A stretch of DNA of 64,000 bases, taken from positions 90,449,042-90,513,041 of the forward strand of contig CP092870.1 in the NCBI GenBank assembly GCA_030710605.1, given 5' to 3'. This document shows, in pieces, positions 6,008-61,439 of the stretch. Under the pieces are notes generated by a model. It was not told the DNA's origin. It saw only the letters and a list, made by a program, of their open reading frames with translations, and did no database searches. Position 1 is the stretch's first letter. Each line of letters starts with the position of its first letter. The translations under genes and the position numbers were made by a program. This DNA is from Cordylochernes scorpioides. Taxonomy: Eukaryota > Arthropoda > Arachnida > Pseudoscorpiones > Chernetidae.

Positions 6008-6098
6008 GTATTTCTCCGTTCGTAACTAATACTTAAAGTAACTTATAATACATTATAAATGACTGCGGCGTATGATTATAAAGCAATACTTAAAGTTT

Positions 6099-6362
6099 AA
6101 CCGCATAAGTTTCTTTTATTTGAGAAAAATCAATTTTTCCGTTCGCCATTACTCTTCATATTTTCACCTTTCCATACGTCATCCAATCATATATAGACCA
6201 TCACTCTTCATATATTCAACCTTTTCATACGTCATCCAAAAAGTTAGAAATATTAGATATCTCTCTTTGAAATTAAAATTGATTTTTCACAAATAAAAGA
6301 AACTTATGCGGTTAAACTTTAAGTATTGCTTTATAATCATACGCCGCAGTCATTTATAATAT
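6099..6362 (+). repeat. Inverted copy of the 352-bp repeat (tRNA head deleted)
   Basis: Reverse complement of the body of the preceding tandem units, joined near 6136 at the point where the tRNA-like head would begin. With the upstream unit it can form a long hairpin. Confidence 0.8.
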
Positions 6363-7405: not shown

Positions 7406-7964
7406 ATGTTTTCAGTTACATTTGTAGGTATTTCAATTTTAACATTTGTACAGTCATTCACAATCATTGGACAAAACATTCACACGAGGAGTTCACAAAA
7501 ATCAAGGTCATGCTAAATGATTGTTTTGTTTTTAATTTGAAACAGAGAAATTCATACATTGATATACACTTGGATAAAAATGCCCTCGAGTAAATTACTG
7601 GGATTGTCATTTATATATATAGCTAGTTAATAAATCTATACAAATATAATTAACATTTTACGAAACTATATTTATGGGTATACATCCACAGAACCAGGAC
7701 GTATTTTTAAAATACTTCAAAGCGATGATGATGATAATGGATAAATAACAAAATCATTACCTTTATAATCTAATTAGAAACTTGAAAATTTGCCTTTTTA
7801 ACGGAATATAAAATTACCGAGTCTATTCTTCTAAAAAAAATTTCCGATATTTACAAATAAATATGATAACCATTGTAAAATTTTGCATGCATATAGTTTG
7901 ATAAAAATGAAAATATTGCTGGGACGAAATTGATCTATAAAATATATCTACAAAAGTGTCGTTT
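7406..7964. other. AT-rich stretch, nothing recognised
   Basis: No open frame, repeat or RNA motif seen beyond short AT-rich runs. Confidence 0.5.
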
Positions 7965-8050
7965 TGTCACCGACCCCTGAGTCCGCTAGTTTGCGTCTAC
8001 AGTCAATAGATGGCGCTTAATTTAATTAGACTATTTTAACGGGAGAGGTG
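7965..8050 (+). repeat. Fragment related to the hammerhead-bearing repeat
   Basis: Shares GTCACCGAC, CAATAGATGGCG and CGGGAGAGG in the same order and spacing as 50498-50582, but lacks a hammerhead core. It appears to be a diverged, ribozyme-less copy of that family. Confidence 0.6.
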
Positions 8051-15335: not shown

Positions 15336-15887
15336 TAAGAAAACTGAATCTATACACAAATATATAAAATGCTACAGTCAATCCTTCATGAATTTCAACC
15401 TTATAATCCTTAGAACTGGCTGTCATTCTATACCTACCCGTAGAACAGGACAATGTTCTAATAGCATTATATATAAGAACGCGTTATTGCCAATCATGAT
15501 GCAGAACAAAGGACCTAATGGAACCTTCACAATCTGCCAAAGTCGCTAGGCCAAATCTATGGCCAAAATATAGATTAAAATTTTCCGAGAGGATATTCAT
15601 TTATAAAATTAAAGCTCACTTCACCGTCAAAACAGACGCCAATTAAAACAATTGACAATTTTTTTATATATAATTTATAATAATAATAACAAGATTTACT
15701 GGCCTACGTATCTTTAATTTTAATAAAATCATATTAACAATGCAGCATTCAATTTTAATGTATTACCTAGTAATTTTACAATCATCACAAACATACATTT
15801 TCAAATTGTAAAAGAGATAACTTGTTTTCTCTTTATTGCTTTAACGAATTACTTTTTTATATTAACTGCTTTGAATCTCCTGGACAT
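15336..15887. other. AT-rich stretch, nothing recognised
   Basis: No open frame, RNA gene or repeat family identified. Confidence 0.5.
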
Positions 15888-34342: not shown

Positions 34343-37156
34343 CTAGAAGCTGCAGAGATAGCAGTAGTAGGTCTCAGGAACATCCTCCCATTCCAGGTTG
34401 AAACACTGGGCGTGAACAAAGAAACGACAGTTCGCACACCGAATCTTGCAGCCCCAGACATCTTTCTGGTTGCATCGACATCTGACTTTCACCTTGTAAT
34501 AATCTTGAGAGTCAATAGAAGTGGTGGAAGAAGATTCCAAAAGGCTTGAATTTGATATTTCAGAGGCTGAATTTCGAAGTTCTTCAGTAGGGGATGAAAT
34601 TCTCGGAGAATTTGAATGTGTATCCTTGGGCGAAACTGAGAATATTTGCTGACTTTCATCACTAACAAACCTTGTAGGTAAATCCTCATCTTTGAAAATA
34701 GTATTTTCGTCAATGTTTTCATCCGAAATTGTAATATGATTGTTATTGGCCGTTTTTATCCCATCTAAAAGGTAAACACCTTCAAATTTGGCCTGCATTT
34801 CGGATGATAGGTCCGAGGTAACTGAAAGTTGCTCCGAATTGGTAACTAGATCCGAAGAAGGATACGGGGCACCGTAATGTTCTGGGCTACGAATTAAATT
34901 TAAAAGAGAATTATCACTAGGCTTCCCATTGGATGATGTAATGAGCATTTCAACATCGCTTTGCAATTTTGACACCCCATTGGTCATCGAAAGAGGTTGT
35001 TGGCTGTGAGGTGTAAGCAAGGAGGGCGATGTCTCATCATAACTCGGAGGACTGAGATGTGGGCTGGAAGAATCAAATTCCCTGTGGAAATGGATGGCCG
35101 TATTCATGGCAGGAGATTCTCCAGCAGAGTTCAGTGAATTAGGATATAATTGCGCTGAAGTCAATATTTCGATAGAATTCTGGATTCCTTGTAATGAACA
35201 AAGCTTCTTTATATCATTAGACTGCAGCTCCTTGGGTGGAGTTGTCTGTAAGTATGGGGAGGGGGTTAATTTGGTAGATTCTGAGCTGGGAGTTGGAAAC
35301 AACGTCAGAGGGATGTCCGAAGTAGGGTGTCTTAGTACCGAGGCTGCTAAGCATTTTAGCGTCGGAATTTCTTTTGTATTACTTTTCGCGCAAGCAACTG
35401 AATCCATTGTCGAAGTTTCCTCTGCCGAAGCAAGGTTTTTACTGGGGTTAATATGTTTATTAGATAAAATGGTTTCTTCGCTAACATTTAACGAAATATC
35501 GAAATCTAATTTCATATCCAAGAGGCGTGAATCAGCTGAAGTAGTGGAATTATTAGCTTGAGAAATTGCCTGCGGCAAAGTCATTTCGCCTGAATTTTTG
35601 GACTTCTGGGAACTAAGAGTTGTGTTTGAATCGGAACCTTCTTCTTGGACTGGGGATTTTTTAATAGAATTTAAATGTTCCTCCTGCCGTATAAGCGGTA
35701 GATCGGCACACATGAAGCACCTGTAATCCTCATAGTTTTCATTCCAATTCAAGTCGAGGCAGCTCATATGAACCCAGTATGTACATACATTACATTTTAT
35801 GTTTACCCCGGATGTGTCTTTCGAGCCGCAGTAACAGCGAATTTTTTCCTGGTGCAAGTCAGTGGAGGTGGATTGAATTGAAGGAAAGAGACAGGTCTTC
35901 GGCAGGTCGTTCGACAAAGGAGATGTTGGCTGCGAAGTATCAGCTCCTTCAGGCTGGATTGACTCTCTAAGCTCAACTGACGTCACGAATGAAAATATTT
36001 CTTTCTGCTTTTGTATGGTTAAATGGCTCAAATCTTCTTGCCTCTGGATGTTCGAATGGCTCAAATCTTCTTGCCTCTGGATGTTCGAATGGCTCAAATC
36101 TTCTTGCCTCAGGATGTTCGAATGGCTCAAATCTTCTTGCCTCTGGATGTTTGAATGGTTCAAATCTTCTTGCCTCTGGATGTTCGAATGGCTCAAATCT
36201 TCTTGCCTCTGGATGTTCGAATGACTCAAATCTTCTTGCCTCTGGATGTTCGAATGGCTCAAATCTTCTTGCCTCTGGATGTTCGAATGACTCAAATCTT
36301 CTTGCCTCTTGATGTTCGAATGGCTCAAATCTTCTTGCCTCTGGATGTTCGAATGGCTCGAATCTTCCAGCTTCACTGATGTGGCGATCTTGCGAGGAAG
36401 TGTTTCCTGATCGTTTTGACTGATCTCCAACAAATAAAATGCTTCTGGTAAATACTCTTTTAACAACTCCAAAGTTATTGCCTTCTTATTTTTAGCAACT
36501 TCTCTCAGTTTTTGTTTGCAGACAGTTGTCATTCTGAAAATGGAATTTTCCAAAATATTCTGAGTGTTACTTGTTTCTTGGGATCGAAGTAAGATTAAAT
36601 CGTTCTCCTGTCGTTCTGCAATTTGCCAAAACTGCAAGATACAGTCAGAACTTATTACCAGTAACTCATCTCCTGTAGAGGTTTGTTGACTTGTTTGAAT
36701 TATATGAACTTTGCGTCGTTTTTTCTTTGACGCACCATTGGGTTCAATATAAACCAGGATTTCCTCATATTGAGCTTTGAGAATTTTTGTGCCTTCTCTA
36801 CTTTCGCTCTCTCTATCAGAGGAGCTCAAAACTTCGCTATTTGAAGATTCTCTAATTTTTTTATTGGCTCTTGACTTTGGCTTGAATTCGACATTTTCTG
36901 TGTTGAGCTTAGATTTTCTTTTTTTAACCATTGAAGCCCGATTCTTCTTCAAGTTTACATTCATGTTTTGTTGATTGTTTTTATTGGGAGTTTTCATTAT
37001 TTCTATATCTTCTTGAAAATCGCTTGAAACTTCAAAGAATTCTTCGATAGAAGTAACAATTTTAGTTTTCTTCAATTCTGAACTACCAAATCCAGTAAAA
37101 TGAAAATTATTTTCTTCCAATAATGGATCTTTTAAAGTTGAGAAGCGGCGTTTCAT
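34343..37156 (-). CDS. Large intronless protein with two PHD fingers and an 11-residue tandem repeat
   Basis: Open frame of 937 residues from the ATG at 37156 (AAAATGAAA context) to TAG. Order: basic, serine-rich N-terminus with nuclear-localisation-like KKRKSK and KKKRRK clusters; a leucine-rich stretch around 150-260; ten copies of an 11-residue unit such as NIQRQEDLSHS (about residues 263-375); a first PHD finger, C4HC3, from CYC to CFMC (about 440-484); a long Ser/Thr/Pro-rich linker; and a second PHD finger ending in ETYYCYLC at the extreme C-terminus (about 889-936). PHD fingers usually read histone H3 tails, so a chromatin role is inferred. The second finger resembles those of PHF20/MLL5-type proteins (VPExYxCYxC), but I cannot name an orthologue. 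Nearly 2.8 kb without a stop in a TE-rich region argues for selection. Confidence 0.82.
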   Translation of the reverse strand: MKRRFSTLKDPLLEENNFHFTGFGSSELKKTKIVTSIEEFFEVSSDFQEDIEIMKTPNKNNQQNMNVNLKKNRASMVKKRKSKLNTENVEFKPKSRANKKIRESSNSEVLSSSDRESESREGTKILKAQYEEILVYIEPNGASKKKRRKVHIIQTSQQTSTGDELLVISSDCILQFWQIAERQENDLILLRSQETSNTQNILENSIFRMTTVCKQKLREVAKNKKAITLELLKEYLPEAFYLLEISQNDQETLPRKIATSVKLEDSSHSNIQRQEDLSHSNIKRQEDLSHSNIQRQEDLSHSNIQRQEDLSHSNIQRQEDLSHSNIQRQEDLNHSNIQRQEDLSHSNILRQEDLSHSNIQRQEDLSHSNIQRQEDLSHLTIQKQKEIFSFVTSVELRESIQPEGADTSQPTSPLSNDLPKTCLFPSIQSTSTDLHQEKIRCYCGSKDTSGVNIKCNVCTYWVHMSCLDLNWNENYEDYRCFMCADLPLIRQEEHLNSIKKSPVQEEGSDSNTTLSSQKSKNSGEMTLPQAISQANNSTTSADSRLLDMKLDFDISLNVSEETILSNKHINPSKNLASAEETSTMDSVACAKSNTKEIPTLKCLAASVLRHPTSDIPLTLFPTPSSESTKLTPSPYLQTTPPKELQSNDIKKLCSLQGIQNSIEILTSAQLYPNSLNSAGESPAMNTAIHFHREFDSSSPHLSPPSYDETSPSLLTPHSQQPLSMTNGVSKLQSDVEMLITSSNGKPSDNSLLNLIRSPEHYGAPYPSSDLVTNSEQLSVTSDLSSEMQAKFEGVYLLDGIKTANNNHITISDENIDENTIFKDEDLPTRFVSDESQQIFSVSPKDTHSNSPRISSPTEELRNSASEISNSSLLESSSTTSIDSQDYYKVKVRCRCNQKDVWGCKIRCANCRFFVHAQCFNLEWEDVPETYYCYLCSF
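36017..36372 (-). repeat. 33-bp coding tandem repeat inside the double-PHD gene
   Basis: The 33-bp unit (plus strand GGCTCAAATCTTCTTGCCTC) repeats about ten times with few, mostly single-base changes (Q/K/L and S/N variants). Its high identity suggests recent expansion; copy number may vary between individuals. Confidence 0.9.
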
Positions 37157-37718
37157 TTTCAACGCATCAATATGTAAATCGATGGATGAAAAAAAATATA
37201 TTAAAGTGGGAGAGGGATAAAAAAAATGATTAACATAAAAAAGATTGATTTATTTAATTCAATGACAAAAAAAATGAATATATTTAAATTTCAAAATAGA
37301 TAATTATTAAAATAAAATAGATATAACTCAGGTTATTGGAGCGCAGAATTAACAAAAGTAAATAACTTCTAATATGCATATACACAAATTATTATTGCAC
37401 CATTTGCAATCGAGATTTCAAATAATTTAAACTCTACTCTCTCAAATGTTTATCTATTATAATATTTGTCACCGCAGTCAGCAACAAATATAATTTTCAA
37501 AAAATAATAAGCAAAGCGCGCCCAATTAAATTAGTTTATAATTGAAAATGTTTATGAAAAGTAGCGATAAAAAATATTTTCAATACCGAAAAATAACCTC
37601 TTTAAAACATGTTCAGGAAAAAAAAATAAAGCTATCTACTTGTAGCAGATTTTAAACCAAATTTATTATATGTGTAAGGAACAACTTCTTTTCATATTAT
37701 ACTGAAATATATAAATAT
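37157..37718. other. 5' flank of the double-PHD gene
   Basis: AT-rich. Near 37322-37345 there is a LINE tail fragment (AACTCAGGTTATTGGAGCGC). No clear promoter element. Confidence 0.4.
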
Positions 37719-38085
37719 ACTAGCCGAATGACCCGGGCAACGCCCGGGGTTTACCCGATTAAATGCTTTTATTCAAATACTATTCGTTACAATTATAAAT
37801 TGGCGCCGTGGATGTCATTCTTGTATAATATATAAATGAGTTTTAAAAATTGTAAAAAAAAAATGCATCGGCCGGGAATCGAAACCGAACCACCCGCGTG
37901 GCAGGCGAGCATTCTACCACTGAACCACCGATGGTTATGAGAAATGGCCATATTTGGGTATTTATTCCATTCACAAAAGCAAACGGTGACAGAATTGATT
38001 AAGAAGGGGCAATGCCCGGGTTTTACCCGATTGAATGTTTTTATTCAAATACTATTTGTTACAATTATAAATTGGCGCCTTAAAT
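37719..38085 (-). mobile_element. Helitron-like element end carrying a tRNA-Gly-like sequence
   Basis: Minus strand ends ...CCCGGGCGTTGCCCGGGTCA then TTCGGCTAG at 37720, with the hairpin CCCGGGC/GCCCGGG. It contains the block GACATCCACGGCGCCAATTT and a tRNA-Gly at 37864-37934. A second, partial hairpin end is at about 38008-38050. Confidence 0.7.
37864..37934 (-). tRNA. tRNA-Gly(GCC)-like sequence, damaged T-arm
   Basis: Acceptor halves CATCGG/CCGATG pair, D-arm TGGTTCAGTGGTAGAATGC and anticodon arm CGCCTGCCACGCG are intact, but the variable/T region (GGTTCGGTTTCGATTCC) is altered, so it is probably a pseudogene. Confidence 0.7.
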
Positions 38086-38119
38086 AAATGCATATCCTAA
38101 TCCTAATCAATCAGTCATA

Positions 38120-38400
38120 GGCCGCCTCTGTCACGGATGGCCGGCGCCCTCCTATTGGACGGCTACGATCACGTGTCATCGTTGGCGCGTAGGTGACCTT
38201 GAGTGACGTAATGCCCCCCCCCCCCCCCCCTGCCGGCGGCGCGCGCCCGTTGGCTGCCGGCGAACACGTGACCTACCTGTGCGCGCGCATCCGTGACAGA
38301 GGCGGCCGATGAGGAAAGACGGTCGTGACTATATATATATAATAATAATAATATAATATAATTAATATATATAGTCACGACCGTCTGTCGTGGCCTCTGT
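38120..38400. repeat. Inverted-repeat module with CACGACCGTC ends and a poly-C tract
   Basis: CCTCTGTCACGGAT occurs at 38126 and 38393 with its complement ATCCGTGACAGAGG at 38289. GGAAAGACGGTCGTGACTAT (38313) faces ATAGTCACGACCGTC (38360) across a short AT stem. Includes C17 at 38214-38230 and alternating GC at 38240-38290. The same end sequence recurs at 38913, 40110, 47543 and 49908. Confidence 0.65.
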
Positions 38401-38403
38401 CAC

Positions 38404-38669
38404 GGATAATATACAGTTATCATCGTCATGCGTTCTTAATTCTGTCACCGTTTGCTTTTGGTTCAGTGGTAGAATGCTCGCCTGCCACGCGGGCGCCCCG
38501 GGTTCGATTCCCGGCCGATGCATTTTTTTTTTTTTTCAATTTTTAAAACTCATTTATATATTATACAAGAATGACATCCACGACGCCAATTTATAATTGT
38601 AACGAATAGTATTTGAATAAAAGCATTTAATCGGGTAAACCCCGGGCGTTGCCCGGGTCATTCGGCTAG
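38404..38669 (+). mobile_element. Helitron-like end with tRNA-Gly-like sequence (5'-deleted subtype)
   Basis: Hairpin CCCGGGC-GTT-GCCCGGG at 38641-38657, then CTAG at 38666-38669 and T. Upstream family sequence TACAGTTATCATCGTCATGC. Confidence 0.72.
38455..38522 (+). tRNA. tRNA-Gly(GCC)-like sequence lacking its 5' acceptor strand
   Basis: From GGTTCAGTGGTAGAATGCTC through the GCC anticodon arm to CGATTCCCGGCCGATGCA. A deletion joined TTTGCTTTTG to GGTTCAG, removing the acceptor 5' strand; the same junction occurs in the copy at 40640-40702. Confidence 0.78.
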
Positions 38670-38684
38670 TATAATATATGTATG

Positions 38685-38945
38685 AGTACATTTTGTGTAG
38701 AAATAGGATTAGTTGACTTTATAAGGTAAACTTATTTATACAGTTTGTATCTCCTGGTAGCTCAGTTGGCAGAGCGGAGGACTGTAGATGTTACAACGGT
38801 GATCCTTAGGTCGCTGGTTCAAATCCGCTCGAGGGAGTTTTTTTTTTATTATTTTTATTGGCTGCCGGCGAGCACGTGACCTCCCTGTGTGCGCGCATCC
38901 GTGACAGAGGCGGCCGATGAGGAAAGACGGTCGTGACTATATATA
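38685..38945 (+). repeat. tRNA-Tyr-carrying repeat, copy 1
   Basis: Body TATGAGTACATTTTGTGTAG, then GTTGACTTTATAAGGTAAAC, then a tRNA-Tyr-like sequence, a T run, and the end CATCCGTGACAGAGGC...GGTCGTGACTATAT. Two other copies: 39900-40135 (+) and 47545-47830 (-). Confidence 0.8.
38752..38836 (+). tRNA. tRNA-Tyr(GUA)-like sequence with short intron, damaged acceptor
   Basis: GTAGCTCAGTTGGCAGAGCG, GAGGACTGTAGA with GTA anticodon, intron-like TGTTACAACGGT, then ATCCTTAGGTCGCTGGTTCA. The 5' acceptor CTCCTGG no longer pairs fully with the 3' side and one T-stem base is lost. Confidence 0.75.
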
Positions 38946-38989
38946 TCTACTTATATATTTGCCTTATTCTGTCTGTCTGAAGCTCACGG

Positions 38990-39230
38990 ATGGGATTTTT
39001 CATAACCATCGGTGGTTCAGTGGTAGAATGCTCGCCTGCCACGCGGGCGGCCCGGGTTCGATTCCCGGCCGATGCATTTTTTTTTTTTTTTTACAATTTT
39101 TAAAACGCATTTATATATTATACAAGAATGACATCCACGGCGCCAATTTATAATTGTAACGAATAGTATTTGAACAAAAGCATTTAATCGGGTAAAACCC
39201 GGGCGTTGCGCGAGCGCCCGGGTCATTCGT
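38990..39230 (+). mobile_element. Helitron-like element with best-preserved tRNA-Gly
   Basis: Contains the tRNA-Gly at 39006-39076, the GACATCCACGGCGCCAATTT block and an expanded hairpin (CCCGGGCG-TTGCGCGAG-CGCCCGGG) followed by TCATTCGTATA; the terminal CTAG is replaced by TATA. Confidence 0.65.
39006..39076 (+). tRNA. tRNA-Gly(GCC), almost complete
   Basis: All arms fold: acceptor CATCGG/CCGATG (first pair C-C instead of G-C), D-arm GGTTCAGTGGTAGAATGC, anticodon arm CGCCTGCCACGCG with GCC, T-arm CCGGG-TTCGATT-CCCGG, discriminator A, then a T run that would end Pol III transcription. Only the first base deviates from a canonical tRNA-Gly. Its setting in a mobile repeat makes a pseudogene or an element promoter more likely than a dedicated tRNA gene. 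Confidence 0.82.
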
Positions 39231-39232
39231 AT

Positions 39233-39540
39233 ATAATAATTGTATAAACGAATGCAAGACAAAATCACCGCGAATGTTTCTTTTTTTAAGGCAATTTCTT
39301 TTTGAGGCAATTATCGTTATTTATCGTTAATTTTTGTTTCGATTTTATTGAAAAAAAACGATATGGTGCCTTTAAAAAATGATCTTTATTTCTATGCAGT
39401 TTTCTATTTAGTCAATATACCTAAGTTCATGTTGCAAATGTAATTATCTCTATCGATTTAGTAGGTGAAATGCAAAAAAAAAAATCGACATGATATAATC
39501 TTTATGAAAATTCACATTTTTATTTTTATATTTTCAAGAC
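39233..39540. other. AT-rich spacer
   Basis: Short piece at 39270-39310 resembles the foldback CGCGAATGTTTCTTTT of 8266-8460; otherwise unassigned. Confidence 0.4.
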
Positions 39541-39781
39541 ACACACAGTTTGGGGCGGGACGTTTCACAAGAGAGACATCCACGGCGCCAATTTATAATT
39601 GTAACGAATAGTATTTTAATTAAAACGTTTTAAAAACACACAGTTTGGAACGCGACGTTTCACAAGAGTGACATCCATGGCGCCAATTTATAATTGTAAC
39701 GAATAGTATTTGAATTAAAACGTTTTTAAAATATATACGCACTCGGGTAAAACCCGGGCGTTGCCCGGGCCATTCGTCTAG
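39541..39781 (+). mobile_element. Helitron-like 3' end with internal duplication
   Basis: CACACAGTTTGG..CGACGTTTCACAAGAG and GACATCCA(C/T)GGCGCCAATT occur twice (39540 and 39640). Ends with the hairpin CCCGGGC-GTT-GCCCGGG (39753-39769) and CTAG (39778-39781). Confidence 0.7.
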
Positions 39782-39899
39782 TTAATAATAAAAAGGCATA
39801 TATATTGAATTGAATAAGAGATGTATTTGCCAATATTTGCCTTTTTTTTATATAATGATTTTAAATTTGGATTGTTCTATTTTCAAAATATAAATATAT

Positions 39900-40135
39900 C
39901 TATATTAATATGTGAGAAATGATATAAGTATTTGTTCAAAATCTTAATTTATTGGTTAGGTATGAGTACATTTTGTGTAGAAATAGGATTAGTTGACTTT
40001 ATAAGGTAAACTTATTCATCGGTTTGTATCCTTCGATAGCTCAGTTGGCAGAGCGGAGGACTGTAGGGAGTTTTTTTTTGTAGATGCGCGCGCATCCGTG
40101 ACAGAGGCCGATGAGGAAAGACGGTCGTGACTATA
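39900..40135 (+). repeat. tRNA-Tyr-carrying repeat, copy 2 (tRNA internally deleted)
   Basis: Body as in 38685-38945. The tRNA (40030-40071) has the canonical 5' half CCTTCGATAGCTCAGTTGG to GGACTGTAG but jumps directly to the 3' acceptor GGGAG and a T run. Confidence 0.8.
40030..40075 (+). pseudogene. Truncated tRNA-Tyr(GUA) pseudogene
   Basis: 5' half identical to an ordinary tRNA-Tyr, broken right after the anticodon; about 45 nt are missing. Confidence 0.75.
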
Positions 40136-40140
40136 TATTT

Positions 40141-40440
40141 AAATGATCTGGCTTTGTATCTTCTGCTCGAATGAATGTTTTTCTGTTAGAATTTTGTTCC
40201 TGCATACTAAAAATGAACTGGCCTCACCCGTGGTCTCTGCTTTTTGGAATTTTTCCGGATATAATTTTGTATCTGATAATCAAATATGATACAGCAATAT
40301 TGTCATCATCATTTTCTTAATAAAAAACAACTACTTTTCTCCCAAAACCTGTCAATTTATTTTTCTTGACTAAAAATCCGAAAAATATATTTTCCAGATT
40401 TTTCTCTATGTCCTGTTAAAACACGTTTTACATGTCCATT
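40141..40440 (+). repeat. Interspersed repeat (same family as 28885-29130)
   Basis: TCTGCTCGAATGAATGTTTT, TTAGAATTTTGTTCCTGC, CTGGCCTCACCCGTGG and CAATATTGTCATCATCATTT in order, as at 51897-52215. Confidence 0.65.
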
Positions 40441-40589
40441 AGATCAGCTGATATTACCTCCCATCTTCACCGCTAGAGGCGCTGCTTGCGAGTGAAAGGG
40501 CAAATTTGCCACGCAATTTGCAAATAACTTGTAGACATACTTGTATACTTGTGTACATAGACCATAAATCTGTACATAGACAGGAAAAG

Positions 40590-40835
40590 CACATATATTT
40601 TAATAATATAAATGAGTTTCAAAAATTGTGAAAATAAAATGCATCGGCCGGGAATCGAACCCGGGGCGCCCGCGTGGCAGGCGAGCATTCTACCACTGAA
40701 CCAAAAGCAAACGGTGACAGAATTAAGAAAGAATTGTGCATGACGCTGATAACTGTATATATTAACTAGCTGATGTACACGGCTTCGCCCGGGTTTTACC
40801 CGAGTAAAGGTTTGTCTAACGAACATTTGTTAAAA
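40590..40835 (-). mobile_element. Helitron-like end with tRNA-Gly-like sequence (minus)
   Basis: tRNA-Gly on the minus strand (40640-40702) with the same 5' deletion junction (GCTTTTGGTTCAG) as 38455. Beside it, 40766-40800, a reverse GGGCGAAGCCGTGTACATCAG-CTAG end belongs to the second hairpin subfamily. Confidence 0.65.
40640..40702 (-). tRNA. tRNA-Gly(GCC)-like sequence lacking its 5' acceptor strand
   Basis: TTCAGTGGTAGAATGCTCGCC to GGTTCGATTCCCGGCCGATG; one base less than 39006-39076 in the variable arm. Confidence 0.75.
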
Positions 40836-45126: not shown

Positions 45127-45204
45127 AATTGGTGAGCTGGACGACTCGAATGAATAATTAACGGCCAACGTCAAGGGCAAATCTTGGAAGCTCAAACATT
45201 CACG

Positions 45205-46053
45205 ATGGAACTCACCCCATCTCAAATATCAAAATTGATTTTTCGAGCTCCACCCTTCTTGCCAAACGACATTCCATTGTGGCTCAGCCAACTGGAAGTT
45301 GCCTTTATTTTCGCAAACATCGCCAGCGACGACAATTTCAAGTATAACACAATAATCGTTAATTTAGATAGACTAGCTCTCATCTGCGTATACGACATTG
45401 TAGAGAACCCACCAGTTTCAGGAAAATATGCGGCGCTCAAAGAACGACTTCTCCTGCGATTTGGCTGGTCACGCCAGGTACGAACAGCTCAAGTCTCAGA
45501 AACTAAGCCCATTGCTGATCAGAGACCCTCGATTATCCTGGTTGAATTGTCCAAACCACCTCCATCTCAGCACTGTGGTCCCTGTACTCCCACCTCCAAT
45601 AGCCTCCAATACCTGGAGCAGACGGATTTACCCCGTGACATGAATGTCACAACAACTGCCCCGGTGACTACAGTCCATAACGTTGAAGACACCAACTCAA
45701 GCTCCACCTTGCTTTCTCCCACCAGCTCTCTGAGTAACTCTTCATCCCTGGACTCCTCATCGTTCTGCTCCAACCTGCCTTCAAACACCATCTCGTGCCC
45801 CCCTGAAACTGTTTTCTCCACCCCAGTGCACAGTGACAATCCCTTGCCCCAGCAGCCGCCGTCTCATGAAGAGCCCTTGCCCCAACAGCCGCCGTCTCAT
45901 GAAGAGCCCTTGCCCCAGCAGCCGCCGTCTCACGAAGAGCCCTTGCCCCAGCAGCCGCCGTCTCATGAAGAGCCCTTGCCCCAGCAGCCGCCGTCTCACG
46001 AAGAGCCCCTGCCTCCATCCTGCGAGCAGAAACATCCACTCTTCCTAAAATAA
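45205..46053 (+). CDS. Gag-like protein of the LTR element, 282 residues
   Basis: Starts at ATG 45205 (MELTPSQISKL). The first 95 residues match the capsid-type N-terminal domain of arthropod gypsy Gags (DUF7041-like): FRAPPFLPNDIPLWLSQLE, FANIASDDNFKY and KYAALKERLLLRFGWS. The middle is Ser/Thr-rich. The C-terminus has five copies of the 11-residue unit LPQQPPSHEEP, coded by a 33-bp repeat (about 45841-46008). No zinc knuckle is seen. The frame is intact from start to stop, so the Gag-like product may still be made. Upstream TTG codons are not needed as a start. Confidence 0.8.
   Translation: MELTPSQISKLIFRAPPFLPNDIPLWLSQLEVAFIFANIASDDNFKYNTIIVNLDRLALICVYDIVENPPVSGKYAALKERLLLRFGWSRQVRTAQVSETKPIADQRPSIILVELSKPPPSQHCGPCTPTSNSLQYLEQTDLPRDMNVTTTAPVTTVHNVEDTNSSSTLLSPTSSLSNSSSLDSSSFCSNLPSNTISCPPETVFSTPVHSDNPLPQQPPSHEEPLPQQPPSHEEPLPQQPPSHEEPLPQQPPSHEEPLPQQPPSHEEPLPPSCEQKHPLFLK
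45841..46008 (+). repeat. 33-bp coding tandem repeat in Gag
   Basis: Five units with CCCCAGCAGCCGCCGTCTCA, nearly identical; CAT/CAC and CAG/CAA silent differences. Confidence 0.85.
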
Positions 46054-46417: not shown

Positions 46418-46758
46418 TGTGGCGACCGCACTTTGCTTCAGCGAACTGGGACAAAGCTTCAAAACACATACGGGCAGAAGCTTGGCGGCCCCATTATGCC
46501 TCGGCAAGCACGTGTTGGGAGAACACTTCACTACGCATGCGCGGGCGTCATCCGGAACTTTCTAGCGGCTGGCGCTTCCGACACTTGATCTGGCACTCAC
46601 GCGGTAAGCATCTAGGCTAACTCCAGTGGCCGTTACTTCAACCGTTACTTCTTTTCTATTTTTATATTTCTCGCTTTAAATATATTAATTTTAATTATAA
46701 TTTTATCAGCAGCCTTTCCACAAGCCACACCAGCACATCACGCAACAACCATCCTACA
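46418..46758 (+). repeat. 3' LTR
   Basis: 341 bp; differs from the 5' LTR by a 3-base insertion near the end (CAACAACCAT) and a few substitutions (for example GCATGCG-C/T, AAATAA/ATAT). Confidence 0.88.
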
Positions 46759-46762
46759 ACAC

Positions 46763-47495
46763 GATAAATGTTTTTAAGAGGTAAGATTATCCAATCGCCG
46801 TGAAACTTTAGGAAGTTATATATATATTTATTATATTACTGGGAAGGTTTCTGGTTTGAATTTGATTTGAAATAAATATTCGTTGCATTTTTATTTGCAA
46901 ATTTTCTACTTTCACTCGCAAGCAGCGCCTCTCGCGCTATCTGGTTAAATTACATTTATAAATTGTATAAATGCTAAAATGTGTTCCAAGTATAATAAAT
47001 TTAATATTTAGTTTGATGATTTAGTAATATAATATTTCAATGAAGTTGTAAAAAACTTGGCATTTCAATGCTAATATATATTTAAAGAAAATATCTTATT
47101 TAAAATTTAATAAATGTTTTCAAAAATATTATGTGTTTCAAAAATATTATGTGTTTCAAAAATATATTTAAACGCATATAACAATATTTATATACGTTTA
47201 TAAATCTATATATAGGTGTATTGGATGTTTTCTAGAATCATTTTAACAAATGTTCGTTAGGCAAATTTTACTCGGGTAAAAACCGGGTACGTTCGCTAAA
47301 TACAGTTATTTACAAATGTTCGTTTGTGGGAAGATACTATTCCTTCAAATTACCGAGTGGACCAATTAATATTGATTTTATTCAACTTATCGAGTATTTT
47401 TAAAGGGACCGGAAAAAAATTCTAATTATTGAGAGTATAGACAAGTATATCTATTCAATAGAGAGAGTGGATATGTTTGCTCGAACAATATATTT

Positions 47496-47528
<33 letters not shown>

Positions 47529-47544
47529 AACATATAAACATATA
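46763..47544. other. AT-rich stretch with a Helitron-like end fragment
   Basis: 47225-47290: GTTCGTTAGGCAAATTTTACTC then GGGTAAAAACCGGGTAC. Otherwise unassigned; (AT)n at 47495-47528. Confidence 0.45.
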
Positions 47545-47830
47545 GTCACGACCGTCTTTCCTCATCGGCCTCTGTCACGGATGCGCGCGCATCTACCAAA
47601 AAAAAAACTCCCTCGAGCCGGATTTGAACAAGCGACCTAAGGATCACCGCTTAATTACATCTACAGTCCTCCGCTCTGCCAACTGAGCTATCGAGGGATA
47701 CAAACCGATGAATAAGTTTACCTTATAAAGTCAACTAATCATATTTCTACACAAAATGTACTCATACCTAACTAATAAATTGAGATTTTGAACAAATACT
47801 TATATTATTTCTCACATATTAATATAGATA
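47545..47830 (-). repeat. tRNA-Tyr-carrying repeat, copy 3
   Basis: Inverted relative to 38685 and 39900; same end (AGTCACGACCGTCTTTCCTC), same tRNA position, same body to TTATATTTCTCACATATTAA. Confidence 0.82.
47609..47697 (-). tRNA. tRNA-Tyr(GUA) with intron, nearly complete
   Basis: Acceptor CCCTCGA/TCGAGGG with discriminator A, D-arm TAGCTCAGTTGGCAGAGC, anticodon arm GAGGACTGTAGA (GTA), intron-like TGTAATTAAGCGGTG, ATCCTTAGGTC, and T-arm GCTTG-TTCAAAT-CCGGC with one mismatch. On this strand it is followed by a T run. It could still be transcribed by Pol III; the T-stem mismatch and mobile-repeat setting argue against a main tRNA gene. Confidence 0.78.
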
Positions 47831-47844
47831 TATTTATATTATAA

Positions 47845-48127
47845 AGGACTGCGGCGTATGATTATAAAACAACACTTAGAGTTTCACCGCATAAGTTTCT
47901 TTTCTGTGAAAAATCAATATTTATTTCAAAGAGAAATATTTAACATTTCTAACTTTTTTGGATGAAGTATGAAAGGGTGAAAATATGAAGAGTAATGGCG
48001 AACGGCTCTTCATATTTTCACCCTTTCATACTTCATCCAAAAAAGTTAGAAATGGTAAATATTTCTCTTTGAAATAAATATTGATTTTTCACAGAAAAGA
48101 AACTTATGCGGTGAAACTTTAGATATA
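47845..48127. mobile_element. Foldback element related to the 352-bp repeat
   Basis: Arms contain GTTTCACCGCATAAGTTTCT and AAACTTATGCGGTGAAAC, with TTGGATGAAGTATGAAAGG against its complement; centre near 48003. The sequence resembles 5395-6098 but has no tRNA head. Confidence 0.8.
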
Positions 48128-48429
48128 TATATATTGAAAATAGAACAATCCAAATTTAAAATCATTAGATTAAAAAAAAAAGACAAATATTGGCAAATAC
48201 ATCTCTTATTCAATTCAATATATATGCCTTTTTATTATTATGCCTCCATCATGCCTCCCCCACTCGCTCTTTCGTTTTTGTAACTATTGGTTTGGAGCGG
48301 GTCGCTCTTTAAATAAATGCATATATTAGTTAATAACTAAATCGAATCCTCTCTTTCCTTTTCCCAGTATGAGACGCCTACGGAAGCCAACAGTACATAG
48401 ACAGATAAAGCACATAGGCTATAGTTATT
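48128..48429. other. AT-rich spacer
   Basis: 48165-48240 repeats part of 39780-39860 in inverse orientation (GCCTTTTTATTATT, TCAATATATATGCC). No gene. Confidence 0.4.
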
Positions 48430-48541
48430 AACTAATATATGCATCTATTAAAGGCGGCAAATTTATAATTGTAACCAATAGTATTTGAATAAAAACATTC
48501 AATCGGGTAAAACACGGGCGTTGCCCGGGTCATTCGGCTAG
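48430..48541 (+). mobile_element. Helitron-like 3' end
   Basis: Hairpin CGGGC-GTT-GCCCG then TCATTCGG and CTAG at 48538-48541. Confidence 0.65.
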
Positions 48542-48599
48542 TATAAACATAAAATGTGGCGAATATTATTATCATTATTATCATAATATTCTGTGTGTG

Positions 48600-48684
48600 T
48601 TCCGGAATATTATTATCAATAATATTCGTTAGGCAAACTTTCACTCGGATAAAACCCGGGCGAAGCCGGGTACACATCCGCTAG
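48600..48684 (+). mobile_element. Helitron-like 3' end, GAAGCCGGG subtype
   Basis: AACCCGGGC-GAA-GCCGGGTA hairpin then CACATCCG and CTAG at 48681-48684; inserted next to the previous end. Confidence 0.65.
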
Positions 48685-48852
48685 TTCTATATAAATATTG
48701 TATATATATATTGATTTTCAAGGGTTATTTCGAAAATCTCATTCTTGATATTCTCATAACTTGTAAGATTTATATAAGTGTAAAGGACTAAAGCAATTTT
48801 GTGATTTGTCGAATATAGAAAATGAAGTTTTAATATGTATTCATTAAATACA

Positions 48853-48975
48853 GTAAAACCCCTCTATAACAAACCCAATGAGACTGAACATTTGGTTCAC
48901 TATATAGCCACTGTATTATTTCAGAAAATACGGATTATATCAGGTTCGTTATAAGGGAAGGTTCGCTACATCCCT
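48853..48975. mobile_element. Short DNA element with CAGTAAAACCCCTC terminus
   Basis: Left terminus CAGTAAAACCCCTCTATAAC matches, as reverse complement, the right terminus of 61440-61616; its own right end is eroded. Confidence 0.5.
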
Positions 48976-49794
48976 GGTTCTCCAATTTTTAAACCTTTTA
49001 CACCAAATAGACAAAACTTAAGGAAGTAGAAAGTCTTTAATGTCCCTGGTTTCCTGTTTTTTTTTTTTTTTTTAAGGAGACAGAGGCAAATTGTTCACAC
49101 TTAGTTATCTTGTATGTCTTCAATAAAGGTCTGCTTTTTTATAATAGAATTCTCTACATATTCGGTCATTCATTTGAAACCAATAAATGAAAGCAAATTA
49201 TCTACCACCTAATTTTAGAAACACAACTTACCTTCATTATAGATTAAATCTCGATTGAAATATCAAATTGAGACTAGATACTTTGCGGATAGTTATTTTC
49301 ATTTATTTTTATAATTTGAATCATATTCGTTAGTCTACCAAATAGTTTTGCTTTTTTTACCTGCTTCATTAGGGGGTTTCAAATTAAAAAGAAAAACCTA
49401 CGTAGAATGTGTCCAAGTAAAATCATTTTGTTTTTAAACACTAAGTTCCCTCTCTATTTATTGATTTATTTAGTAGAAAAGTCTTATCTTAATAAAGTTT
49501 TTCTGTAGCCGAAGACAATTCGAAAAGAATAAAAAAAAAAAATTTCAGTAAATTTCTTAAGCCATAGTTTTTGATAATGGTTAGAAATATTGAAATTCAA
49601 TCAAGAAAAATGAATAAACCTTATTTTGTGGATACATATCCAACATTGATTATATACATCGAAGATAATAAATTTCTGAAAATTATAACTTGATAGTCTT
49701 AACTAAATATACACAGCTGTTAATTATAATGTGCTATCTATATATGAAGACTATAAATCACGAATTGTTATTTTAAAGATAAAACAAACTTCTA
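48976..49794. other. AT-rich stretch, nothing recognised
   Basis: Contains ACAAAACTTAAGGAAGTA near 49013, a motif also at 51282 and 58854, possibly a Tc1-type terminal repeat. No gene. Confidence 0.4.
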
Positions 49795-49875
49795 CTGTCT
49801 TTACTGCTGAGAGGGTTCACTACTGATGAGCCAAACCCTCAATATTTTTCACCGCAGTAAGGACAGTAGAAGTTT
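49795..49875. mobile_element. Short hairpin derivative of the ACTGCAATGATAA family
   Basis: CTTCTACTGTCTTTACTGC faces GCAGTAAGGACAGTAGAAG; an inner stem GAGGGTT/AACCCTC encloses CACTACTGATGAGCC. Confidence 0.7.
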
Positions 49876-50089
49876 TTTTATGGGTAAAAGAAACGTATTA
49901 TATATATAGTCACGACCGTCTTTCCTCCTCAATTCCTCATGTCACGGATGCGCGCGCATCATCATTATGATCATTATCTTCTATAGAAGCTTCTATCTTT
50001 ATAATTATGTATATTTACAAAAAGTCAATTCGATCGCGCCTCTAGCGGTGAAAATGAGGGGTAATACCAGCTGACCTAATGTACATGTA

Positions 50090-50215
50090 AAGTTTGGAGC
50101 GGGACGTTTCACAAGAGTGACATCCACGGCTCCAATTTATAATTGTAACAAATAGTATTGGAATAAAAACATTCAATCGGGTAAAACACAAGCGTTGCCC
50201 GGGTCATTCGTCTAG
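50090..50215 (+). mobile_element. Helitron-like 3' end
   Basis: GACATCCACGGCTCCAATTT block, damaged hairpin (AAGCGTTGCCCGGG), then CTAG at 50212-50215. Confidence 0.6.
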
Positions 50216-50227
50216 TATATATATAAT

Positions 50228-50622
50228 CAGGTCTTGACGTTTATTTTGACGGGAGAGGCGCCTTATGCTTCTGTGGATCAATTTCCTCCCGGCAAATTTT
50301 CCATCTATATTCTAGCCATAGATTTGGCCCAGCCACCTTGCCAGCAAAACACCTCTTTGGTAGATTGTGAAGATTTCATTAGATCCCGTGTGGATCTCAT
50401 GGAATTAAAGTCCGCCCTAGACTGACGAGGGCCATTAGCCCGAAACCATGGTCTCTAGGTGGACGCTTATCAGTTTGCCAAAGTTGGTGTTGTGGCTTTG
50501 TCACCGACCTGAGGCCGCTAGTTGCGGCGACGGTCAATAGATGGCGTCAGGTCTTGACGTTTATTTAGACGGGAGAGGCGCCCTATGCTTCCCGGCAAAT
50601 TTTCCATCTATATACATATTCG
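50228..50622 (+). mobile_element. Partly tandem, hammerhead-bearing retroelement unit (Penelope LTR or retrozyme type)
   Basis: CAGGTCTTGACGTTTATTTT at 50228 and CAGGTCTTGACGTTTATTTA at 50548 mark a 320-bp unit followed by a partial second copy (to about 50620, with CGGGAGAGGCGCC and CCGGCAAATTTTCCATCTAT in both). The second copy lacks about 15 bp near 50275. The unit holds one complete hammerhead ribozyme. There is no coding sequence. Partial tandem copies with a hammerhead are typical of Penelope-like element terminal repeats and of animal retrozymes. A ribozyme-less relative is at 7965-8050. Confidence 0.75.
50410..50464 (+). ncRNA. Type I hammerhead self-cleaving ribozyme
   Basis: All invariant positions are present. 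Stem I: CCTAGA (50416-50421) with TCTAGG (50454-50459), extended by GTCC (50410-50413) with GGAC (50461-50464) across a small internal loop. Core CTGACGA (50422-50428). Stem II: GGGC with GCCC (50429-50432, 50438-50441), loop CATTA. GAA (50442-50444). Short stem III: ACC/GGT around AT (50445-50452). C at 50453 is position 17, so cleavage is predicted between 50453 and 50454. The very short stem III is typical of retroelement hammerheads. Chance occurrence is very unlikely. Confidence 0.9.
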
Positions 50623-50625
50623 TGT

Positions 50626-51590
50626 TTCAATGCTTTCATCTCATATATACACATAAGATATCACATGTCTGATGGGATACCTTGCAAGTTGATATGCACG
50701 TGTATCGTGGATATGCACGTTAAATTTATATATAAATCTTATTTCAAACTAGTTGGATTATTGTTTCATTAATTCTTGTAGAAGGGCGTATGTGCCCGAA
50801 AGCTCGTATATATTTGTTCTAATAAAGATACGCAGCCCTCGATGCTTTGTTTTATTCATTTATAAATTGTACAGGGCTTTTTCAATTGATATACACATTT
50901 GTTTTGAAGTCAGAACTATAGGTCCTTTAGTCGTATAGGTCTTATCATATATATATAGGGCTCATTTTACAATTTAGTAATCATTAGTGTGACTTAATGA
51001 TATATTAAGAAAAATGACATTTTTTTCCTGATCGTGAAACTTAAAGTGCAACGGCAACTTTTTTTCTTAATTTATCTACCTGATCCAAATACAAATTCAC
51101 TTTTTTGTACTATTTTTTTAAATTAATAATATATGTTTCTGTGTGAAGAAAAATATTCAATATAATTTGTATAAAGAATCCTTTAAATTGAGATACACAT
51201 TTCTCTTTGTCACATTATTTTATCATAGAGTATTACATACCATTCAAAATAAAAAATAACCCTAAAATCTACACTCATGGACAAAACTTAAGGAAGTTGT
51301 ACATAATACATCAAATTTTATATATAATTCCCTTTGAACAAGATTTATATAGAATCAAACCAGAGGAGATTCTGGTGAAGATGTGTAAAGTAAATAATGT
51401 ATAGCGGTAATGAGGTAAACACGCATGTTAGAATGTTCCTTCGGGAAATAAAGGGAACAGTTGAGGTCCACACAAATCTTTTACTGAACAAATACTGAGT
51501 CCATTTTGGGGGAAGATATCTTCCTGAAGTAGGAATAAAGACCTTCTGAAACAGAGAAAAAAAATATATATTTTTAATATTATATCATAC
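50626..51590. other. AT-rich stretch with a hairpin GAAGGGC..GCCCGAAAGC
   Basis: 50781-50806 carries GAAGGGCGTATGTGCCCGAA then AGCTCG, a motif common at retroelement ends and recalling stem II plus GAAA of a hammerhead, without CTGANGA. No gene. Confidence 0.4.
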
Positions 51591-51860
51591 TAGCCGAATG
51601 ACCCGGGCAACGCCCGGGTTTTACCCGATTAAATGTTTTTATTCAAATACTATTCGTTACAATTATAAATTGGCACCGTGGATGTCACTTTTGTGAAACG
51701 TCCCGCTCCAAACTTTGTCTGTTTTTTTTTTAAATATAAAAATAAAAATGTAAATTTTCACAACGGTATTTGAAAATTATATTATTTTGATTTTCAAATA
51801 CTATTCGTTACAATTATAAATTGGCGCCGTGGATGTCACTCTTGTTAAACGTCACGCTCC
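51589..51860 (-). mobile_element. Helitron-like 3' end (minus) with internal duplication
   Basis: Minus strand ends CCCGGGC-GTT-GCCCGGGTCA, TTCGGCTAG at 51591. The AATTTATAATTGTAACGAAT and GACATCCACGG blocks occur twice (51655-51700, 51800-51850). Confidence 0.7.
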
Positions 51861-51896
51861 AAACTTTGGGTCTGAGAAGCGATATTTTTATAGAAA

Positions 51897-52215
51897 GATG
51901 TTCTGGCTTTGTATCTTCTGCTCGAATGAATGTTTTTCTGTTAGAATTTTGTTCTTGCATACTAAAAATGAACTGGCTTTACCCGTGGTATCTGCTTTTT
52001 GAAAATGTTCCCGTTATAATTTTGTATATGATAATCAAACATGATACAGCAATATTGTTATGATCATTTTCTGAATAAAATACAGCTATTTTTGTCCAGA
52101 ACCTTTCAATTTCAAATTTTCTTGGCTAAAAATCCGATAAATATCTCTTCCAGATTTTTCTCTATGTCCTGTTAAAACACGTTTTACATGTACATTAGGT
52201 CAGCTGATATTAATT
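51897..52215 (+). repeat. Interspersed repeat (same family as 40141-40440)
   Basis: TTCTGGCTTTGTATCTTCTG, CTCGAATGAATGTTTTTCTG, ending TTTACATGTACATTAGGTCA and ATCCTCACCGCTAGAGGCGC. Confidence 0.7.
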
Positions 52216-54184: not shown

Positions 54185-55338
54185 GGCACTCAACCAAGTA
54201 AAGGTAGTTGATCAGGTTCAGAATATTTTCCTAAGACGCTACCTAAATTTACCAAAGTATACTCCGGGCTTTATGCTAAGAATGGAGTGTGGACGAGTAT
54301 CACAGTAGGTTATCATAACTAAACAGGTCCTGAGATTTTGGGTGAGGATTATGAAAATGGAAGAGAGTAGGTTGCCCCGGGCATGTTTGTCACACCTCTG
54401 GACATTACACAGCAATCAAAGGGCTGGTTTAACCTTTGTCGAAAACCTGTCAACCATTTTAGACTCAAACGGTTTTTCGTTCCTGAAGGGTTGTCCGGAT
54501 TACACTGCAATACTGACTGAAATCCCTGCTATTATCCGAATAGCAACCGAACAAAGCATCCAAAACGACATGGCGAAAATCCTAAATACTTCACATTACA
54601 GTCACTTCAAATACCTAAAAAATTCAATAACAGCAGAACGATATTTATTCACAACTATTCCTCTAGCAATTAAAAGATTTTTTGCACAACTGAGACTCCT
54701 ATGGACGATCTTCCCAGAAAATCGTTCAAATCGCTGGAAAATTGATTTGACTCTAACTTGCGATCTGTGTAAAAACAGAATCCAAGACGAAATTATGCAT
54801 ATAATATTTGGATGCTCTTGCTTAGAGAAACAGAGGAAAGAAATTTTGGGTGACTTACCCTGGTCTCAACCTGACTGCCAACAAATTTGCAGCTGGATGA
54901 ACACACTGATGGTTGATCAGGGTCTCTCCCTCGGTTTATATAAATTCTACAAGGCCGCAGTCAATGTCCGTTGGAGAACAATGGATGCGCCGAATGTCGT
55001 GGTTTGCTTGGAGGAAGAAAACGAAGATTGAATGCGGCTGATTCCACACTAGCCCTCTCAATGATATCCTAACCTTGACATATTCTAAACATTGGTACTT
55101 TAATTTAAATATTTAATCATGTATGGTTCCTTTTGCTCTGTATGTTTATTTTTTGTATATATGGTTATATTTTTTTTTGTTTGTTTTTTCTTTCTTCTCT
55201 CTTTTCTTTTTCCTTATTACTTCTTGTATTCTAGTTTTTACTTTTGAAATATCTTCCTTTGCTAAATCCTGTAGAGGGGAATCATGTATAGGGCTGGATG
55301 CCCCAATAAAAAGGCTTATGTGTGTGTGTGTGTGTGTG
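54185..55338 (+). mobile_element. 5'-truncated LINE with C-terminal ORF2 and (TG)n tail
   Basis: Plus strand. VQNIFLRRYLNLPKYTPGF (near 54220) is the start of the preserved part; after a stop near 54310 the frame is open to 55031. The 3' UTR holds AATAAA at 55305-55310 and ends in TTATGTGTGTG.. (55318-55338). No flanking duplication was identified. Confidence 0.8.
54330..55031 (+). pseudogene. LINE ORF2 C-terminal region with zinc knuckle
   Basis: About 230 residues: RFWVRIMKMEESRLPRACLS, a region with FAQLRLLWTIFPENR, the knuckle CDLCKNRIQDEIMHIIFGC, and a tail ending LEEENED. No polymerase core, so nonfunctional alone. Confidence 0.8.
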
Positions 55339-58847: not shown

Positions 58848-59060
58848 CATGGACAAAACTTAAGGAAGTTGTACCTTTTAACATGTATATCGAGATTCAG
58901 AACAATAACTCTGAAAGATATTACAGTGACCTTTATTGAAGATATGAAATCACCAAGTGTGAACAAAATTGTCTCTGTTTCCTTTAAAAAAACGACCAGC
59001 TACATCAGAAACTTTCCACTTCCTTATGTTTTTTCTATGAAGTGTATATATTAGTGGATA
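58848..59060. repeat. Sequence with possible Tc1-type terminus
   Basis: ACTCATGGACAAAACTTAAGG at 58848 recurs at 51273, and part at 49011. No paired terminus or transposase is seen. Confidence 0.35.
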
Positions 59061-59689
59061 GTTTTGCTTTATTTATCAAGAAAATGGGTTGGCCAAATAT
59101 CAAGGAACAGGTTTAATCAATGTTTAGTTGATTTTTGTTCCACTAGATGGCGCTCTGCCATCTAAAAAAGCATATGTGCTTTTGGTCAGGATATGCCTTA
59201 TTTATTTTTAATATGTATACCATATCCTGACAGCTCACATCAGCATTTTTATTTTTTATTCTCTATTTAATTATTAAGAGGATTTTTTAAGGGATAAAAG
59301 GCTAAAACCTTGTATTTTTCTAAAAGCAGCTTATATAACAAAATCAATTAACTCATCATCTTCCATTACCTATTTAATACATATTTTCTCTAATTTACAT
59401 AATCTACTTAGAGATATCTTACATATTTACATGTAACTACGATTCCATGTACGTAATACTAAAACGTATTTATGCCATTAAAGAATTAATTTTGAATTTT
59501 TTTTTTCTCTTTTATATATAAGTACATTCTCAAAGTTTTCAACGTAAAATTCAAATATACATGTTTTAATAATAATGTTTTCTTATATTTCCAAATATTG
59601 AGTTGATAATTCCCCGATTAATAATCCTTAAATTAATTACTCAATATTTTACTCGCTATAAGATATTTAAACTATTTTTGAAGCGTTAT
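59061..59689. other. AT-rich stretch, nothing recognised
   Basis: Contains the motif AGATGGCGCTCTGCCATCT near 59153, a small perfect-looking hairpin; otherwise unassigned. Confidence 0.45.
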
Positions 59690-61242: not shown

Positions 61243-61439
61243 GAGCTAGAGAAAAGGTACATATTTATAAAGCCTTTCCAAATGCTTCATTTTTATCTTT
61301 TCAGATGAGAACAAAAGATTTTTGCTGAAACGTCGAGAAACTAAAACCTTTTCTGGCCGAAGTGTTTCTTATTCTTGAGAACTATGAATGCCGGCCAGGC
61401 AACCTCATTTTTCAAGATGTATCTTTTTATTCTATAAAT

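Follow-up and report, generated by a model that had tools for sequence, protein, structure and literature searches.

A Dispersed Family of Non-Coding Hammerhead Elements with Penelope-like Insertion Scars in the Pseudoscorpion Cordylochernes scorpioides

Introduction

The animal non-long terminal repeat (non-LTR) retrozymes are non-coding elements with a type I hammerhead ribozyme in tandem or partial tandem units of 150–450 bp, a GC content below 50% and target duplications longer than 4 bp, and circular RNA has been shown for them (PMC7229834). Type I hammerheads also sit in the terminal repeats of Penelope elements (PMC7761336), whose insertions carry 8–10-bp target duplications and inverted pseudo-LTRs (pLTRs), one of which bears a 31-bp tail (PMC3846280). 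PMC11167929 described AT-rich cutting of both strands and mapped two start sites, the distance between which yields the tail. In this study, we analysed a stretch of 64,000 nt of the Cordylochernes scorpioides genome (contig CP092870.1), hereafter the window, in which a hammerhead motif lies in a 320-nt non-coding unit. The elements built from this unit are called family A, and positions in the unit are written u1–u320.

The mobiliser of animal retrozymes is an open question. Penelope has been named a strong or likely candidate on the indirect grounds that both kinds of element carry type I hammerheads and co-occur (PMC7229834, PMC7761336). Family A is a further retrozyme-type family, and its insertion scars bear on this question as genomic evidence for one family. 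They match Penelope anatomy quantitatively, in a genome that holds a young Penelope of the same anatomy.

Family A and Its Insertion Scars

The first-pass annotation of the window had described a 320-bp unit followed by a partial second one. This order was recovered (Table 1), but the "start" that it placed at the left end of the unit marks only where this copy happens to end. In other copies, the arms have many different beginnings, and the 320-bp boundary is arbitrary. The GC content of the unit is 49.4%. The list of frames for 46620–52200 has no open reading frame (ORF) of at least 130 aa with ATG, GTG or TTG as start codon, which agrees with the annotated lack of coding sequence nearby. 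The mapped arms of family A leave no room for an ORF with a Penelope reverse transcriptase and a GIY-YIG domain. Since there is no such ORF in or near the element, it would be mobilised like a Penelope element without being a coding member.

The genome (2.62 Gb, 24 contigs) was searched with the 386-nt element of the window, which gave at least 68 matches (40 of 2343 candidates scored); at least 42 places covered more than 90% of the query at 89–100% identity. A second query, u284–320 joined to u1–83 from locus L005, gave at least 50 matches (40 of 315 candidates scored). The match counts for family A, for the second query and for the relative A' described below are lower bounds. Family A is a dispersed, non-coding, non-autonomous family, as had been suggested.

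We mapped 71 loci (41 from the first search and 30 from the second) onto a circular unit. Twelve loci were left out, five as overlaps by coordinates and seven as flank duplicates, and pieces below 85% identity or shorter than 100 nt in all were not counted. The resulting 61 insertions comprised 43 two-armed head-to-head insertions, 16 one-armed and 2 complex ones (L012, L032). Locus L077, split by about 100 nt, was entered as two one-armed pieces. The head-to-head pairs, the two fixed ends and the target duplications were not part of the first-pass annotation.

The outer ends of the arms lay mostly near u45 (counted at u41–56) or u83 (u76–88), 38 nt apart. Both ends could be classified in 36 of the 43 two-armed insertions, and all 36 had one end of each type and none had two alike, for which the odds under free choice are about 0.5^36. 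The same held before duplicate removal (38 of 38 classifiable, among 47 two-armed insertions). The u83 end was on the inverted, shorter arm in 26 of the 36 and the other way round in 10. The seven unclassified two-armed insertions were L005.1, L006.1, L009, L024, L037, L038 and L091, of which L037 runs off the end of its locus. Both queries end at u83 and the opposite arm was not selected, so one tailed arm may be over-sampled, mostly in the second sample; the long query of the first sample biases that sample towards long arms.

Target duplications in 42 two-armed insertions had a median of 10 nt and reached 8 nt or more in 28, compared with a median of 4.9 nt and 16% for permuted flank pairs. 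The 30-nt flanks were 79% AT. The 5' beginnings of the arms were scattered over the unit. As judged from these mapped arms, the insertion scars of family A have the anatomy of Penelope insertions (inverted arms, a tail on one end, a target duplication), with one tail per insertion.

The Hammerhead Motif and Its Conservation

The hammerhead was re-read from the sequence exactly as annotated in content and order. GTCC (50410–50413) pairs with GGAC (50461–50464) as outer stem I, and CCTAGA (50416–50421) with TCTAGG (50454–50459) as inner stem I. The core CTGACGA occupies 50422–50428, stem II is formed by GGGC (50429–50432) and GCCC (50438–50441), and GAA follows at 50442–50444. The C at the cleavage position is 50453, and the cut is predicted between 50453 and 50454. 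One element was probably mis-drawn: a stem III of three pairs would leave a hairpin loop of only 2 nt. As ACCATGGT is a perfect palindrome, two base pairs closed by a CATG tetraloop, or pairing in a dimer, would be the more plausible reading.

A strict descriptor, which demanded the full core, H17, at least 4 bp in stem I and at least 3 bp in each of stems II and III, matched once in the window, both strands included, compared with 2 matches in 300 dinucleotide shuffles, that is, 0.007 per window. The looser pattern CTGANGA-N13-GAA alone was not rare (2 observed, 0.48 expected; two or more in 9 of 100 shuffles). The hammerhead of the window looks genuine, as a predicted self-cutting RNA motif.

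Descriptor scans of the fetched loci showed two further kinds of hammerhead elements besides family A. One is A', a diverged relative of family A with a hammerhead (L006, L094), whose query gave at least 40 matches in the whole genome (40 of 2115 candidates scored). The other, family B, was found in L034, L041, L054, L069, L082 and L094. The A' stretches at L094 1690–1930 and L006 557–708 look like an older related family with compensatory changes in stems I and II.

A hammerhead core has CTGANGA, GAA, the pair A15.1–U16.1 and H at position 17, and in type I it is stem I that is open. We aligned 13 chosen rows (11 distinct): five family A copies, both A' motifs and the six B motifs found. The columns CTGA.GA, GAA-A and U16.1 were invariant in all 13, and H17 was C, A or T, as a type I core requires. 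With the drawn structure, 93.9% of cells were paired, compared with 21–39% when the partners were slid; this structure was taken from the window copy and is therefore favoured over the slid versions. Nine of the 17 pairs were altered on both sides, a number reached in 5 of 500 shuffles. This alignment indicates that the hammerhead stems are kept by compensatory change across three element families of this genome. The annotated type I hammerhead agrees with it, and the check on compensatory mutations in other copies, named in the first-pass annotation, thus turned out favourable.

Mean diversity among family A insertions was 0.0325 in the core (11 sites), 0.0565 in the other ribozyme sites (44) and 0.0817 in the rest of the unit (265). 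Equal or lower diversity was found in 6 of 320 sliding 55-nt windows, the ribozyme's own among them. CTGANGA and GAA stood at the expected spacing in 52 of 55 copies, duplicates counted.

The Template of the Arms

Among the 86 arms of two-armed insertions, 32 were longer than one unit and 54 crossed the predicted cut site; the template was therefore continuous there, as a circle or an uncut multimer. Run-off at the cut site, for which 5' ends are expected at u227, was considered and rejected: one end in L005 lies exactly there, but only 5 of 102 ends lie in u221–240. Without a pile-up at u227, cleaved linear templates gain no support.

At 13 polymorphic sites, the arms of one insertion agreed in 224 of 252 comparisons (88.9%), against 68.5% after permutation (0 of 5000 as high). 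An earlier count (12 sites, complex insertions included) gave 332 of 380 agreements between arms, with 254.5 expected, and 192 of 208 within arms, with 141.5 expected. Divergence between arms over all shared sites was 5.4% against 7.0% permuted (0 of 1000 as low). Because the arms share alleles, both appear to have been copied from RNA of one sequence, plausibly a circle. Later gene conversion between the arms is an alternative cause of the sharing. With this test, genome data suffice to ask if one RNA sequence templated both arms.

Resident Penelope Elements

GIY-YIG domains are very numerous in this genome (at least 146 matches, with 150 of 17015 candidates scored). At locus L102 lies a Penelope-like element whose two head-to-head arms are identical over 2,402 nt. 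Its open frames of 776 and 663 aa each contain RVT_1 (2.9e-9, 3e-9) and GIY-YIG (2.5e-6, 2.4e-6) in one frame. The 776-aa frame has its start in the other arm; its first residues thus cross the junction, and a 5' truncation of both arms is probable. A hammerhead-like motif lies near each end, an extra 32 nt (the tail) is present on the right end only, and identical stretches of 10–11 nt on both sides form a target duplication.

A 72-nt query over the L102 end and tail gave at least 45 matches (40 of 146 candidates scored), and at least 26 places on many contigs were identical throughout. Five opposite-strand neighbours listed stop at query positions 31–45, and the tail spans 41–72. The identical ends at these 26 places and the identical arms of L102 suggest very recent Penelope activity. 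Pairs with and without a tail were noted by eye, not systematically, for Penelope in L102, L043, L045, L010 and L066 and for family B in L069, L041, L094 and L093.

A perfect stem surrounds the first start in all three families, with a loop of 30 nt in family A (Table 1), of 31 nt in Penelope (CTGGCCG/CGGCCAG) and of 29 nt in family B (GGTCAGG/CCTGACC); start 1 of Penelope and of family B was taken from one locus each. This common layout is suggestive, a lead and not proof. Tail ends look alike by eye (CCGGC...TCTAT).

Proposed Mechanism

We consider it likely that family A is a non-autonomous hammerhead retroelement of the same type as the animal retrozymes, and that a reverse transcriptase-GIY-YIG endonuclease of the Penelope type mobilises it in trans. 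Loci bearing the repeat would be transcribed. The hammerheads, probably as dimers through the palindromic stem III, would then cut after u226 to give 320-nt monomers, which a host ligase may close into circles, as published retrozymes suggest. For this cleavage step and the circular form of the template, our analysis puts the chances at about even.

The same likelihood as for the family applies to the later steps. The Penelope protein would cut both strands of AT-rich DNA about 8–14 nt apart, as the target duplications suggest. On the element RNA, complementary DNA (cDNA) would be primed from each of the two DNA ends, starting at u83 from one and at u45 from the other and proceeding towards the 5' side. 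The cDNA would often pass the ribozyme cut site and sometimes run more than one round of the unit; the ends and lengths are seen in the arms, and the enzyme is our supposition. The two cDNAs would finally join head-to-head, the structure found in the insertions. Cleavage, circles and mobilisation in trans are thus predictions for family A, drawn from genomic sequence.

We tentatively speculate, while thinking it rather more apt to fail than to hold, that animal retrozymes are RNA satellites of Penelope elements. One small RNA circle made by the ribozyme would be copied twice by a pair of Penelope proteins, once from each of the cut DNA strands. The two starts, fixed and excluding each other, would flank a stem-loop arm, so that each insertion is head-to-head with exactly one tail. 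The u45 and u83 starts and the one-tail rule are exact predictions that make the mobilisation question testable.

Alternative Explanations

Several observations weigh against the proposed mechanism. The window copy itself is one-armed and ends at u83, with no visible inverted remnant and a target duplication of at best 6 nt. Sixteen of the 61 insertions are one-armed, 11 ending near u83 and 5 near u45, and a short inverted remnant was seen in only three (L022, L033, L074); these remnants and both L077 pieces obey the one-of-each rule, and the remaining one-armed insertions have no remnant. No clear homology was found between the unit and coding Penelope sequence in 30 GIY-YIG loci of about 3.2 kb each (best E 0.085) and in L102; three of the four weak unit matches in the GIY-YIG loci fall on hammerheads. 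The stem-loop layout is reached by 264 (A), 125 (Penelope) and 45 (B) of 2000 shuffles. One of the five pairing measures, further pair types, was not above shuffles (185 of 500), and the 5' ends of the arms do not pile up at the cut. In Anolis, Penelope hammerhead mutants still insert in vitro and the ribozyme needs protein; no RNA reads end at the cut there, and in vitro the start sites did not differ between the two DNA strands (PMC11167929). Finally, the covariance search proposed in the first-pass annotation stayed below threshold, an outcome that the annotation had named as refuting: no hammerhead reached the Rfam gathering score in the window, none appeared at E ≤ 1 in 701 nt, and the best match at E ≤ 10 on 86 nt was RAGATH-1-hammerhead with 12.5 bits against a cut-off of 56.3 (E 5.8). 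Rfam thus failed as proof of the ribozyme, and the strict descriptor and cross-family pair counts were used instead; the gathering score is a database threshold, not a feature that defines activity.

These low scores would also be expected if the motif were a product of chance, or dead, within an ordinary repeat, as would the minimum-energy fold (z −2.71), which retains stems I and II and loses the native core and stem III. We find such a reading scarcely credible given the rarity of strict-descriptor matches, the invariant core of the 13 rows, the compensatory stems and the low core diversity. The unit could instead be the pLTR of a longer coding Penelope, with the copies as solo or rearranged remnants. 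The identical insertion anatomy, the hammerheads in Penelope terminal repeats (PMC7761336) and the abundance of GIY-YIG matches would fit; arms that read 5'-ward past u1 enter u320 of another unit with no ORF between, they begin at many positions, and the unit was not found in the stretches covered of L102 and 30 further Penelope loci (about 3.2 kb each), 31 in all and a small part of those present. This makes the pLTR explanation unlikely. Mobilisation by long interspersed nuclear elements (LINEs) appears less likely still, although reverse transcriptase remnants of another kind occur in the window. Head-to-head forms would then be products of twin priming, which yields inverted arms with only one end fixed. 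Each of the 36 classifiable insertions has one of each of two end points, and no poly-A tail was found among the family A insertion ends listed.

A closer rival concerns only the cleavage step. The template may have been an uncleaved multimeric linear transcript, with a hammerhead dispensable for transposition, and we rate this at somewhat under an even chance. The arms that cross the cut site without 5' ends stopping there favour it, as do the Anolis mutants, whose insertion in vitro is unaffected (PMC11167929). On the other side, the ribozyme is among the most conserved stretches of the unit, its stems are kept across families, and a circle accounts equally well for the crossing and the shared alleles.

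Comparison with Known Systems

The likeness to animal retrozymes and to Penelope terminal repeats drawn in the first-pass annotation is borne out by the features and scars of family A. Like the retrozymes, it has a non-coding unit with a type I hammerhead in tandem or partial tandem copies, and its unit length, GC content and target duplications fall within the retrozyme values given in the Introduction (PMC7229834). It also shares a short helix III with axolotl motifs, in which one or two helix III pairs are capped by a tetraloop, one motif is palindromic, and cleavage is better as dimers (PMC7229834). Unlike the described retrozymes, most mapped family A insertions are head-to-head pairs that use two alternative ends. 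Neither "inverted" nor "head-to-head" occurs in the main text of PMC7229834, a comparison by wording only. We found no publication reporting head-to-head retrozyme insertions in a search that covered mostly titles and the starts of abstracts, most subscription papers lying outside its scope. Circular RNA was shown for those retrozymes, whereas family A is known from genome sequence alone.

With Penelope-like elements, family A shares head-to-head arms, an optional 30–40-nt tail on one end, duplications of about 8–11 bp, AT-rich targets, two start sites (putative in family A) and a hammerhead (PMC3846280; PMC11167929). It differs from them in being non-coding, with a 0.32 kb unit that runs straight into itself.

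Small Penelope hammerheads reportedly cleave as dimers. Their stem III is very short, as in the window motif, whereas the window motif has a canonical core and an outer stem I. The L102 motif (6136) looks more degenerate by eye than that of the window.

Other Features of the Window

The features of family A in the window and their relatives are listed in Table 1. Next to the left edge of the element, the AT-rich target lies where another repeat ends, and that repeat also occurs left of L098 and L028. The sequence at 50093–50227 may act as a landing site, as it ends in AT-rich DNA, and resembles by eye a 95-bp tandem repeat at 39541–39731.

Table 1. Positions of family A features and related remnants in the window.
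Feature	Position	Strand	Basis or remark
Complete non-coding unit of family A, 320 nt (u1–u320)	50228..50547	+	Limits as in this copy
Partial second unit, ending at u83 ("tailed" end), with a 17-nt internal deletion	50548..50613	+	Sequence, mapping
Type I hammerhead ribozyme motif	50410..50464	+	Core sequence, strict descriptor, cross-family pairing
Stem III ACCATGGT, perfect 8-nt palindrome	50445..50452	+	Sequence
u45/u46, where the tail-less arm of other copies has its outer end; putative reverse-transcription start 1	50272..50273	+	
End of the element at u83; putative reverse-transcription start 2	50613..50613	+	
Possible stem-loop CGGGAG (50250–50255)/CTCCCG (50286–50291), 30-nt loop with start 1	50250..50291	+	
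AT-rich target at the left edge; best target-duplication candidate TATATA only	50213..50227	+	
Relative of family A, old and diverged, in two pieces of 75% and 88%	15511..15642	−	
Relative of family A, old and diverged, u264–319, 85%	7957..8015	+	
Copy of the related hammerhead family B, B query positions 131–293, without its ribozyme part	59051..59214	+	
Decayed Penelope-like 3' end (75% to L102), with apparent hammerhead remnant and start/tail region	61263..61406	+	

Retrotransposon remnants at 12070–14928 (−), 823–1434 (−) and 54342–55028 (+) contain RVT_1 pieces, PRE_C2HC, RNase H and zf-RVT below the cut-off. Open frames at 34346–37162 (−), 2083–2946 (+) and 45184–46050 (+) carry PHD_5, peptidase M48 and DUF7041 domains. 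A 352-bp tandem repeat of 2.2 copies at 5381–6137 carries two tRNA genes of equal score and sequence (5582–5654 and 5934–6006, −). Five tRNA-model matches of 33 to 59.5 bits lie within 3 kb at 37864–40708, and a tRNA-like stretch in L045 is similar to this region by eye, which suggests tRNA-derived short repeats.
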